From a virus: a DNA stretch of 64,000 nt. The stretch's first letter is position 1; each line of letters begins with the position of its first letter. Shown here piece by piece: positions 42,386 to 48,502 of this stretch. The position numbers and the translations under genes are program-made. Under the pieces are notes generated by a model. That model had not been told where the DNA came from and did not search any database. It saw nothing but the letters and a program-made list of their open reading frames with translations. Where the stretch lies: positions 1 to 64,000 of IMG/VR virus record IMGVR_UViG_3300042539_000280. The stretch is one strand, 5' to 3'.

Positions 42386-44230
42386 TTAGTCCTTTACAAA
42401 GTAGTTAGCAGCAATTTCTTTCTTACGCTCTTCCAACTTTTCGATAGCCTTTTCCTGTAGAGCAACCATTAGGTTCTCTTTCATAGCACCGAGATTATCT
42501 TCCATAATATTCTCGATTGCTTCGTTGATTAGTTTGTTTTCCATTTTAGTTTCCTCGTAAACTGTTTTGGTTGTGCCCATAGCACCAGGCTCTTTGATAG
42601 TATCTGGTTTATTTATGTTAGCATCTTCCCTGAATGGAACATTTTCGTTCCAGTCTTTATCCTGAGAAACTGCTTCGGATGTTAATTTCTTGATAGCAGT
42701 TCGGATACCGTGTTCTCTCTTGGACCAAGTCTTGATATCTGGTTTTGGACCTTCGAGAGACTTCTTACGGGATGCAGCGGCCTTCTTGGTGTATGAACCA
42801 AGAGTTTCTGCCTTTAGTTCATTGATCTGTGTTTCTTCTTCACAATTCCAACGGCGTAGTGCCTTATTGATGCGTGAATCCGGATCTCTTGCTGTCTTAG
42901 CAGAGGTCAAACGCTTCTTCATTCCACCCATGCGTGAACAGAATGATTTACGGCGTGATGCTCTTTTACCAGTAGGATTCTTTTCGGTTACGGCAGTTTG
43001 TAGTTTGGAACCTGGATTCTCACGCTTATAGGCATCAACTGCCTTCTGTGATAGACCATCGGTCTTATCTTTACGATTTACGGACTGCCAATCTTCTTTG
43101 ACAGGCTTGACCTTATTTACGTTAGTACCACCTTGCTTTGAACCTTTATAGGTATCGTCCTTTTCATCGTTCTTTGTGGTGGTTGGTTTTGGTTTGCTAC
43201 CATAAAACTTTGCTCTACGATTTACGTCACCAAAACGGTCGAATGGATGACCGATTAAAGCATAACCTTCTTGTTGATAGATACCACGTTCTGCGGTGTC
43301 AGGATACTTGTTTTCTTCATAGGTTGGACGCTCGGTATAACGAGTAGCAGATGAACCTTGTTCTGAAACTGGTACGCAATTAGGGACTTTCTTTCCACCC
43401 TTCTTCTTCATACCAACCATTTCGTATCCCTTCCAGCAGGGATCTTTATCTTCTTTCATATGTCTTTTTCCTTTGACAAGATCGTATGCTTTCTTTGCAT
43501 AATGAACGCCCGTAGCACCCCAACCTGCGGCGCCCGGTAATGTAGATGCCATTCTAACAACGTCACCCTTTGGTGAACCGTGACCGGATGATGCTTTACT
43601 CATAACATCACCCATGGTATAAATGTTAGCGGCAGTCATTCCTGCCATAGCAATTCTTTTGGCTTTCTTTAGTTTTTCACCTTCAACTTGAACGTCTTTT
43701 CTCATAGCACGAAGATCATTTGTTCCTTCGTATCCAGTCATACCGCCTAATTCATTTAGTTTACTGTATTGTGAAAGACCAATACCTTGTTCATGCAAAG
43801 CACGATTAGATGTTGTTTCGATTTCTTTTGGATTGAAAAAATTATATCCTAATCCAGAATTGTGAAGATCAAGATGTGCCTTTTTGATCCATGCAAACTT
43901 ATTACCGTTCTCGTCCTCATAGGACATAGAGTTTGTATCAATGTATTGTTGAACAAAGTTTGTACCAGCAGGATCACCAGAATAATATCCTAGACCTCTT
44001 ACACCATATGATGTTGATTCTTCCTCAATCTTGGATAGTTTCTTATAATAGTCCAACTTTTCACCAAGATGATCCAAAGCAATCTCTCTGGCAATCTTAG
44101 GATTATTAGTATGTTCTTTTTCTACTTTTATGCCATGCATCAACTGTTTTCTAACCTCAACGGAAGAAACACCATATTTCTTGGCCAAATCATTTACAGT
44201 TGGTGTTGGATTGTTTAGCAGTTTACTCAT
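42386..44230 (-). CDS. Large head-block protein with DUF5661/DUF6321-like modules
   Basis: 614 aa. N-terminus VEKEHTNNPKIAREIALDHLGEKLDYYKKL matches the pattern of DUF5661. Two Cys modules follow: DPCWKGYEMVGMKKKGGKKVPNCVP (about 265-290) and ASRRKSFCSRMGGMKKRLTSAKTARDPDSRINKALRRWNC (about 430-475), of the DUF6321 type seen in marine T4-like phages. Very basic and probably packaged in the head. Overlaps the portal gene by 8 bp. Domain names are from memory. Confidence 0.65.
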   Translation of the reverse strand: MSKLLNNPTPTVNDLAKKYGVSSVEVRKQLMHGIKVEKEHTNNPKIAREIALDHLGEKLDYYKKLSKIEEESTSYGVRGLGYYSGDPAGTNFVQQYIDTNSMSYEDENGNKFAWIKKAHLDLHNSGLGYNFFNPKEIETTSNRALHEQGIGLSQYSKLNELGGMTGYEGTNDLRAMRKDVQVEGEKLKKAKRIAMAGMTAANIYTMGDVMSKASSGHGSPKGDVVRMASTLPGAAGWGATGVHYAKKAYDLVKGKRHMKEDKDPCWKGYEMVGMKKKGGKKVPNCVPVSEQGSSATRYTERPTYEENKYPDTAERGIYQQEGYALIGHPFDRFGDVNRRAKFYGSKPKPTTTKNDEKDDTYKGSKQGGTNVNKVKPVKEDWQSVNRKDKTDGLSQKAVDAYKRENPGSKLQTAVTEKNPTGKRASRRKSFCSRMGGMKKRLTSAKTARDPDSRINKALRRWNCEEETQINELKAETLGSYTKKAAASRKKSLEGPKPDIKTWSKREHGIRTAIKKLTSEAVSQDKDWNENVPFREDANINKPDTIKEPGAMGTTKTVYEETKMENKLINEAIENIMEDNLGAMKENLMVALQEKAIEKLEERKKEIAANYFVKD

Positions 44231-46088
44231 TTGTATTTACTAACTTTCCTCTGTCAGCAATGTGAGTTACTTTACCTTCATTATTCATGTATCTGTTATT
44301 GCCTGCATAAACCAATCCAAGGTCTTTTGCTTCTTCGGAAATAGTTTTCTTCTTAGCAGGCACCTGTTTCTTTTGTTTCATTTTTTCAAGTTCAATCTTT
44401 TTATCCATCATAGTGGATTCATGATCACGATTAGCAAGTTCTGCCTTACCAGGTCCTTCATCAGGTCCTGTAATCTTATCAACTTCTTTTTGAACTTGTG
44501 CCTGTGCAATTTGCTGTTGAGCACCAAAGGCAATCTGGTTCTGCATATCCTGTTGCTGTTGAACCGCTTGTGCTTCGGCATCAGCCTGCATTTGAATTTG
44601 CTGTTGCTGTGCAACGATAGCAGTTTCTTGTTCCATTTCGGCATTGATTTCTTCAATATCCTCGTCGGATTGCATTAGAATATTTTTACGAACCCATAGT
44701 TGTGAATAATACTTACCAACGAAAGGATCAACCTTTGTTAGTGTGTCGAGACGCATATTGAGGAGTTCTGCCTCTTTTAGTTCATCAAAGTTATTGTCTT
44801 TTTTGAAGTCGTACCAAATATCTTCCTTGAACTCTTTCCATTCTTCTTCGGTACAAACCTTCTTAGAAACCAACTGGACTCTTAGTAAGTCATCGAATAG
44901 AATAGAGAACTTATTGCGGAGTCTCTGAATAAACTTGGTAAATTTTAGTTCGTCTCTGGTAATTTCAGTAGAACGACCTAGAGAGAAACCTTGTGATGGT
45001 TCCATACGACCAATTGGAACATTTAGCGAACGATATAGTTTAGACTGGAAATACTTGACATCTTCCAATTCACCAAGGTTACGAGCACCTTCTAGTGTAG
45101 AGATTTCTGTACCTTTTGAACCTTCACGGCGTGGTAACCAAAAGTCCTCAAGCATTGATAGATGCTTACGGTCGTCCTTGATTTCACCAGTATTGGAATC
45201 GTATACCAACTTGTTACGATACTTGACCATGATATCACGGACATACTGTTCCGCTTTGACTGTGGGCATGTTACCAACGTCAATATAGAATACACGGCGT
45301 TCTGGTGCTCTTGATAGACGATAGATAACGGTAGCATCTTCAACCATTCTTAGATTGTTGAATGGCTTGATGGCCTTGTGGAGATAAGAAAGAACCATGG
45401 TCTGTTTAGGATCCATAAGTCCTGAGTTTACGTTTACGATGGAGTCTGGTGCAATCTTGGCACCTAAATTGGTACCTGAACCAATCATACCCTTTTCGTT
45501 ATAAAGATAGTATTCAATCTGTCTGCGGATTAGTTCGATGCCGGTTTGCGGATCACGCATTTTTTGAATTTCACGGATCTTTCTAATGCGACGTGGATCT
45601 ATATACTTTAGTTCTTGAATGCCTGCATCAGGCATAGTTTCGTCTATAACAATATGATAGAACATTCTTCCATCAACGTAGTAACGGCGGAAGATATCAT
45701 GTCCCATATTGTTGAAATTCAGTAATTTTAGAATGAAATTGAACTCGTCCTCAATACGCTTTTTGATAGCAGGAGGAACTTTTAGTTCATCCATGTTGAG
45801 TTCTACGCATTGACCACCATCTTCGACAACGATTGCTTCGTTTACGATTTCGTCAATTGCGGTTTCTACTTCTGGTTGGATTGAAAGTTCACGGTATTTG
45901 GTGATAAGTTGAGTTTCGTTACGGAAGGTGCCATCGAGGTCTACATATGTGCCATAATAACCGGCGCCAGCAACCGTTACTGCACCATCATCATTCTGAG
46001 GCAGTGTAAATGTTTTATTCTTTGGTTCGATTAGTTGCTGATCTTCAACCTTTTTAGGTGAACCGATTTCAAATCCGAAAAGTTTTAT
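44223..46088 (-). CDS. 20: Portal vertex protein gp20, with ATA start codon
   Basis: 621 aa from ATA at 46086-46088. The frame is open from there through an N-terminal domain KLFGFEIGSPKK...LPQNDDGAVTVAGAGYYGTYVDLDG, then LITKYRELSIQPEVETAIDEIVNEAI, into the classical gp20 body (FRRYYVDGRMFYH, IYRLSRAPERRVFYIDVGNMP, LPRREGSKGTEISTL). An in-frame TAG lies four codons before the ATA and no ATG, GTG or TTG lies between. GGGAG is 8 bp upstream. The first ATG (45794) would remove 98 conserved residues. The C-terminal 120 residues are Gln-rich. Confidence 0.92.
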   Translation of the reverse strand: MKLFGFEIGSPKKVEDQQLIEPKNKTFTLPQNDDGAVTVAGAGYYGTYVDLDGTFRNETQLITKYRELSIQPEVETAIDEIVNEAIVVEDGGQCVELNMDELKVPPAIKKRIEDEFNFILKLLNFNNMGHDIFRRYYVDGRMFYHIVIDETMPDAGIQELKYIDPRRIRKIREIQKMRDPQTGIELIRRQIEYYLYNEKGMIGSGTNLGAKIAPDSIVNVNSGLMDPKQTMVLSYLHKAIKPFNNLRMVEDATVIYRLSRAPERRVFYIDVGNMPTVKAEQYVRDIMVKYRNKLVYDSNTGEIKDDRKHLSMLEDFWLPRREGSKGTEISTLEGARNLGELEDVKYFQSKLYRSLNVPIGRMEPSQGFSLGRSTEITRDELKFTKFIQRLRNKFSILFDDLLRVQLVSKKVCTEEEWKEFKEDIWYDFKKDNNFDELKEAELLNMRLDTLTKVDPFVGKYYSQLWVRKNILMQSDEDIEEINAEMEQETAIVAQQQQIQMQADAEAQAVQQQQDMQNQIAFGAQQQIAQAQVQKEVDKITGPDEGPGKAELANRDHESTMMDKKIELEKMKQKKQVPAKKKTISEEAKDLGLVYAGNNRYMNNEGKVTHIADRGKLVNTNE

Positions 46089-46117
46089 GGCCGTTACTCC
46101 CTATTCATGATGTAGTT

Positions 46118-46141
46118 CCCGTGGAGAGAAATCTCCACGGG
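46118..46141. promoter_or_regulatory. Hairpin in the gp20 leader
   Basis: Perfect 10 bp stem CCCGTGGAGA / TCTCCACGGG with a 4 nt loop between the tail tube gene and the portal gene. On the minus strand there is no U run after it, so it is not a standard terminator; with transcription starting at the late-type element next to it, it would form the 5' end of the portal mRNA. Confidence 0.6.
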
Positions 46142-46149
46142 GTTTATTA

Positions 46150-46156
46150 TATTTAG
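46150..46156 (-). promoter_or_regulatory. Late-type element CTAAATA before gene 20
   Basis: Minus-strand CCTAAATATAAT, just after the tail tube stop and 62 bp before the portal start codon. Predicted transcript start falls about 2 nt before the 10 bp leader hairpin. Confidence 0.55.
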
Positions 46157-46164
46157 GACACTAA

Positions 46165-46731
46165 TTAGATCGAAGCAACCGAATCGGTTGTTGGTAGTGG
46201 GAAGATTGATTCCCACCACTGATATGCTAGTGTAACACTAAATTCTTCAATCTGGTCACCTGAAGCCCAATCAAGATCAATTGCAGCAACGTCAGTTGGA
46301 AATGCACCAACAATGTGATACTGCTTGATCAATTCACCGGTCTTAGCAAACTGTGAAACCCAAGCATCTGCCTGATAAAGGTTAGCAGTTGCTAGTGCAG
46401 GGTTACGGAGGTTGCCAACGTGTGAGTTGAGTCCAGACATCCATAGTTCTAGGTTATTACGGATACGGAAGTTTTCATCGTTGATAACGGTGAAAGACCA
46501 ATCTGTAAATGTGCGGGTACCAGCAACCTTGATTTCACGTCCAAAATATGGAACTGAAATTGAAGATACGCTGTCACCTGGTAGCGATGTTGCTCTTGCC
46601 TTGAAACGAATTTCCTGGTCAAGAGCGGTGAAACCTGCTGCCGGAGGTAGGTTCATCACAACCTCAAATAGAGAGGCACGTGCCCCGTCTAGTTGTAGGC
46701 TTGCTCTGAAATTTTGAACATTAAATGCCAT
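46165..46731 (-). CDS. 19: Tail tube protein gp19
   Basis: 188 aa. MAFNVQNFRASLQLDGARASLFEVVMNLP, then IRFKARATSLPGDSVSSISVPYFGREIKVAGTRTFTDWSFTVINDENFRIRNNLELW and SVTLAYQWWE are conserved gp19 blocks. It polymerises to form the inner tube within the gp18 sheath. A TAATAAATA element lies about 22 bp upstream. Confidence 0.95.
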   Translation of the reverse strand: MAFNVQNFRASLQLDGARASLFEVVMNLPPAAGFTALDQEIRFKARATSLPGDSVSSISVPYFGREIKVAGTRTFTDWSFTVINDENFRIRNNLELWMSGLNSHVGNLRNPALATANLYQADAWVSQFAKTGELIKQYHIVGAFPTDVAAIDLDWASGDQIEEFSVTLAYQWWESIFPLPTTDSVASI

Positions 46732-46753: not shown

Positions 46754-46761
46754 TATTTATT
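46754..46761 (-). promoter_or_regulatory. Late-type element AATAAATA before gene 19
   Basis: Minus-strand TAATAAATAGAG, overlapping the gp18 stop region by a few bases and about 22 bp before the gp19 start, with AAGGAG between. Confidence 0.45.
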
Positions 46762-48495: not shown

Positions 48496-48502
48496 TATTT
48501 AG
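48496..48502 (-). promoter_or_regulatory. Late-type element CTAAATA before gene 18
   Basis: Minus-strand GCTAAATAAGTAG in the 77 bp gap between gp17 and gp18, 51 bp before the gp18 start. AAAGGAG precedes the ATG. Confidence 0.55.

Follow-up and report, generated by a model that had tools for sequence, protein, structure and literature searches.

To our knowledge, only a handful of bacterial genes have been shown by experiment to initiate at codons other than ATG, GTG and TTG (NTG), with AUA being one of the least frequent of such starts. In Escherichia coli, infC starts at ATT, and IF3 discriminates against this AUU start (PMC5472188). The GTC start of Streptomyces sigR is repressed by IF3 and holds one protein below its partner, excess protein being made when it is replaced with ATG, GTG or TTG (PMC5472188). 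More generally, suboptimal starts tend toward compensation by stronger Shine-Dalgarno (SD) sequences, as is known for GUG and UUG, and prokaryotic switches away from GUG or UUG starts are mostly directed to AUG (202 of 241 reconstructed switches from GUG and 43 of 79 from UUG), only one switch to AUU being found for 61,358 ancestral AUG starts (PMC5622118). The present study concerns a phage portal gene (gp20) that appears to start with ATA, in a window of 64,000 nucleotides corresponding to positions 1 to 64,000 of the 164,392-bp IMG/VR virus record IMGVR_UViG_3300042539_000280. The codons AUA, AUU and AUC (ATH in DNA) are collectively designated AUH. A search of open-access papers turned up no previous description of a portal with an AUH start.

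The portal reading frame and its first codon

The features that define the start of the gene are the following:
44223..46088, minus strand: portal gp20 reading frame, 621 amino acids counted from ATA, matching Pfam Portal_T4 (PF07230) with E=4e-175
46086..46088, minus strand: ATA read as the portal start codon (46086 is its last base), aligned with the ATG, GTG, TTG, ATT and ATC starts of relatives
46101..46103, minus strand: in-frame TAG 5' of ATA, four codons upstream
45795..46085, minus strand: portal codons 2-98, lost if translation started at the first in-frame ATG; median dN/dS 0.07

The initial annotation had proposed that the portal frame continues for 98 codons beyond its first ATG (45794) up to ATA, and that an in-frame TAG precedes the latter with no NTG in between. 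Both statements were borne out. From stop to stop the frame spans 625 codons (46100..44223, minus strand), its first codons between TAG (46103-46101) and the conserved KLFGFEIG being GGA GTA ACG GCC ATA, and ATG, GTG and TTG are absent from the upstream stop until codon 99, the ATG at 45794. Purifying selection on codons 2-99 is strong, with a median pairwise dN/dS of 0.07 in comparisons of AUH-start relatives, and the LFGF motif beside the start is common to nearly all relatives; a start at ATG 45794 was therefore rejected. The PF07230 match is full-length (portal residues 59-488 against profile positions 2-433 of 433), such that codons 2-98 include about 40 residues of the portal domain; solved T4 gp20 homologues (6uzc, 9lu6, 3ja7) cover residues from about 43 on. 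On these sequence grounds, the ATA at 46088-46086 is almost certainly the only plausible start of the gene. Gene callers limited to ATG, GTG and TTG will truncate such proteins and would here drop 98 conserved residues. The 102-codon gap between upstream stop and first NTG makes the portal the only clear gene of this kind in the 164,392-bp record, the few other long gaps belonging to short or overlapping ORFs.

The gene order is that of a T4-like portal, with gp18-like (tail sheath) and gp19-like (tail tube) genes directly upstream. Elsewhere, the phage carries a tmRNA of the alphaproteobacterial permuted type (L304:14597-14939, minus strand, about 96597-96939 of the record), which matches RF01849 and RF04321 with 98 and 94 bits, respectively, and for which ARAGORN gives the tag ANDNNAYEAFALAA; this tmRNA is a hint as to the host. 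Twenty-six tRNA genes are clustered at L307:5713-11989 (record about 144713-150989), and one more lies at L308:3544-3618 (record about 161544-161618). A phage initiator tRNA aiding AUA was considered and rejected, as the three G-C pairs that an initiator has in its anticodon stem are, by eye, present in neither of the two phage tRNAs with anticodon CAU. No phage-encoded IF3 was found.

Start codons at the homologous position in relatives

Among 211 distinct N-terminal contexts of related portals, the start is ATG in 119, GTG in 43, TTG in 14, ATT in 15, ATA in 15 and ATC in 4, with one row undetermined. AUH thus occupies the homologous codon in 34 of the 211 relatives, or 35 with L087, which was tallied as GTG although ATT is the better reading, the SD directly adjoining that GTG. 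As the initial annotation had suggested, the same codon was compared in related phages: ATA recurs in independent contigs from this species and from related ones (L082, L083, L084, L086 and L122, the first three of which derive from other samples and share the ATA of the window), and others have ATT or ATC. An essential phage structural gene has repeatedly used AUA, AUU or AUC. The closest cultured relatives are distant, the best named phage among 50,697 phage records showing less than about 60% identity.

A quick maximum-likelihood tree was built from 128 representatives, and the start codons placed on it require no fewer than 8 switches between AUH and NTG. The clade that includes the window (34 representatives, SH-aLRT 100) comprises 14 GTG, 11 ATT, 6 TTG and 3 ATA starts and not a single ATG, and requires 6 changes among start-codon states. 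Neighboring genes at the portal loci of this clade served for comparison:
46165..46731, minus strand: tail-tube gp19-like gene, the upstream neighbor and start-codon control; ATG at all 55 loci from the window's clade

The gp18 gene likewise starts with ATG in all 41 loci in which its start was determined, as does the downstream gene of 264 amino acids in 11 of 11. Given its recurrence in dozens of relatives, and the absence of AUG from these leaders, the AUH portal start is real and not a sequencing mistake, and it is probably under selection.

Leaders, cassettes and insertions ahead of the portal gene

The SD sequence that had been placed 8 nt from ATA is indeed found there:
46097..46102, minus strand: Shine-Dalgarno AGGGAG, ending 8 nt before ATA

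The distance is shared by other AUH leaders: of 18 distinct ones, 16 have a GGAG or GAGG core 8 nt from AUH, and the remaining 2 have it at 7 nt. This conserved spacing favors direct initiation. Using the anti-SD of E. coli, which may not be that of the host, predicted pairing in the window's clade amounted to -8.4 kcal/mol for AUH leaders vs -5.4 kcal/mol for GTG/TTG leaders (U=0, p=8.5e-11); under the same assumption, values in a second clade were -6.3 kcal/mol for AUH and -4.1 kcal/mol for ATG/GTG (p=1e-7). About 6 of 6 independent pairs agreed in the association of AUH with a stronger SD (median p 0.03). Weak start codons and strong SDs thus go together in portal leaders, which fits compensation of the GUG/UUG type and offers a natural system for studying how start-codon weakness is balanced against SD strength in setting the dose of a 12-copy component.

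Two further elements lie upstream of the SD:
46118..46141, minus strand: leader hairpin CCCGTGGAGA-TTTC-TCTCCACGGG
46150..46156, minus strand: CTAAATA, resembling a T4-type late promoter and lying immediately 5' of the hairpin

Of the 34 clade representatives, 30 have a strong hairpin, whose stem differs in sequence among them, although the best hairpin was chosen for each sequence, so that pair counts are not independent evidence. In the species of the window (L082) the folding z of the leader is about -4.9, with energies far below those of shuffles; none of the known RNA families matched the portal leader. In 26 of the 34 representatives, vs 1.6 expected from shuffles, a CTAAATA-type motif occurs between -58 and -72, and the related late motif of cyanophages is NATAAATA (PMC2984593). 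Given this motif and the hairpin upstream of ATA, the portal probably has its own late transcript, beginning near the hairpin. Across the window, CTAAATA/ATAAATA motifs are rarer than expected by chance, and 27 of 31 lie on the minus strand, that of the structural genes (e.g. 46150-46156, 46754-46760 and 48496-48502). Leaders of the second clade (e.g. L014 and L017) are devoid of the late-promoter motif and display a hairpin followed by a T run ahead of the portal, resembling an intrinsic terminator after gp19; the portal there may depend on read-through.

The AUH leaders of the two clades are unrelated in sequence. That of the window's clade reads GGAGTNACGRCM-ATH, a pattern found in 13 stretches, and that of the second clade GAGAGGYAYCTAAA-ATH, so that at least two unrelated AUH cassettes evidently exist; L282 and L204 carry variant AUH leaders. 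A scan of IMG/VR retrieved the second-clade cassette from 36 contigs representing 18 distinct contexts (ATA in 23, ATT in 9 and ATC in 4) and, with ATG in place of ATH, from none. The pair L177 (ATA) and L178 (ATG) delineates the unit that is exchanged. Their coding DNA is 95-97% identical outside the first codons, whereas their leaders are only 40% identical; the last 15 leader bases of L177, in turn, are exactly those of L014, the portal bodies of these two being 68-79% alike. The mosaic unit consists of the leader and the first seven or so portal codons, which have evidently been exchanged between lineages by recombination, as a cassette. Since recurrence of AUH is partly due to such lateral transfer, its independent origins are fewer than 8. 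This near-identical natural pair, with its ATA and ATG leaders, also makes the effect of the start codon directly testable.

The gp19/gp20 junction is, in addition, a site of repeated insertion, where endonuclease-like ORFs end at or overlap the portal start:
L087:1915-2502, L122:1911-2501 and L279:1969-2502: endonuclease-like ORFs between gp19 and portal, with Pfam HNH_3 in L122 and L087 and NUMOD3 in L279
L007:2500-2994, L018, L020:196-837 and L037:2316-2963: endonuclease-like ORFs at the same junction, unrelated in appearance and lacking a Pfam match

In the first three, the stop codon of the ORF overlaps the AUH start (ATTAA or ATAA). The other four end at an ATG start and are probably endonuclease genes as well. 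That GGAGTAACGRCC represents the tail of an endonuclease gene is less likely, as endonucleases whose C termini differ in type finish with these same letters of the leader. Elsewhere, proteins related to the HNH one end differently, without the shared tail, and the leader letters therefore probably belong to the portal side.

Proposed initiation at AUH and alternative readings

AUA, AUU and AUC are codons against which IF3 discriminates, and T4 assembles 12 portal copies compared to a far more abundant tail-tube protein. We consider it likely that the portal is initiated with fMet directly at an IF3-discriminated AUA, compensated by a strong SD, and that the start is kept weak for low or gated portal synthesis. 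The initiator tRNA would start the protein at AUA itself, and the strong, ideally spaced SD would offset the weakness of the codon. Discrimination by IF3 against AUA, AUU and AUC would then result in low initiation, possibly varying with the state of IF3 in the infected cell, and selection would hold portal synthesis at a much lower level than that of the tail-tube gene next to it. That a weak start holds portal output low had been put forward in the initial annotation and gains support from the absence of ATG in the window's clade and its presence in the neighboring genes, the low expression itself being presumed from sequence; both low output and IF3 control are proposed by analogy with infC and sigR. 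The strong SD could also bring output back to normal, and low expression would then not be the point. More tentatively, the AUH start may act as a timing or dosage gate that ties portal synthesis to the state of IF3 or initiator tRNA during infection, with strong-SD/AUH cassettes being repeatedly installed and exchanged, some of them carried by endonuclease genes with an overlapping stop.

Somewhat doubtful is a reading in which ribosomes that finish a short upstream ORF, or a homing endonuclease gene in some relatives, are held by the SD and restart at the nearby AUH, such coupling relaxing the need for AUG. The candidate ORF in the window is:
46094..46108, minus strand: mini-ORF ATG AAT AGG GAG TAA, of putative role, ending 5 nt before ATA

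The initial annotation had this ORF end 8 bp before ATA, a figure that is in fact the spacing of the SD. At 33 of 34 AUH loci, an ATG lies no more than 30 nt upstream and in most cases begins a very short ORF that stops near AUH; in the window's clade, such an ATG is present at 2 of about 46 loci with GTG or TTG starts. Essentially every AUH start is accompanied by a short upstream ORF or by the stop of an upstream gene, including the endonuclease ORFs ending at ATAA or ATTAA in L122, L279 and L087. This near-universality could mean that initiation depends on coupling and not on direct binding. However, no SD is evident for the ATG of the mini-ORF itself, the frame (0, 1 or 2) and stop position of the mini-ORF vary among AUH leaders, mini-ORFs also accompany ATG starts in the second clade, and the association becomes borderline upon correction for relatedness (agreement in about 5 of 6 independent pairs, with a median p of 0.06 in the sign test). 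The best conserved feature of these leaders is, instead, the SD spacing.

It is unlikely that the AUH leader is a neutral cassette that spread through recombination, perhaps as a passenger of homing endonucleases, and in which strong SDs rescued expression with no selection for weakness. The mosaicism of the leader and first codons and the HNH-family endonuclease ORFs adjoining AUH starts in three loci are in line with such a history, yet ATG, which is a single mutation away from every codon seen, occurs neither in the window's clade nor in the second-clade cassette.

Very improbable is that AUH is an internal isoleucine codon, with an upstream ATG joined to the portal frame by programmed frameshifting or stop readthrough. 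ATA, ATT and ATC do all encode isoleucine, the third base being only A, C or T, but relatives differ in the upstream ATG, which is missing from some and otherwise falls in any of frames 0, 1 and 2 with respect to the portal, and the homologous codon is ATG, GTG or TTG in other relatives, directly so in the L177/L178 pair. No slippery sequence was apparent upon inspection of the AUH leaders, and frameshifting was rejected since the frame of the upstream ATG and the stop position of its ORF are not conserved. Finally, an error of sequencing or assembly in an ordinary ATG or GTG start, from the former of which ATA differs by one base, had been named as the main alternative and is excluded by the recurrence of ATA in independent assemblies and of ATT or ATC at the homologous codon of many independent contigs.

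Direct initiation at a weak codon thus remains our favored reading, and it places the portal start alongside the systems described at the outset. Like infC, it combines an AUH start kept in evolution with a functional SD (PMC5472188); unlike infC, which encodes IF3 and autoregulates, the gene is a phage structural gene, and its control by IF3 would be a parallel drawn from the codon. With sigR the portal shares a rare non-NTG start and, by analogy, a presumed stoichiometric role, in another gene and with another codon. As with the GUG and UUG starts analyzed by Belinky et al. 2017 (PMC5622118), a weaker start is accompanied by a stronger SD, but the portal extends this association to AUA, AUU and AUC in a single phage gene, where changes have recurred and AUG is absent. 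Compared to T4 gene 20, the protein is homologous (PF07230, 12-subunit head portal), whereas the T4-like isolates inspected, e.g. Pelagibacter phage Mosig, start this gene with ATG.
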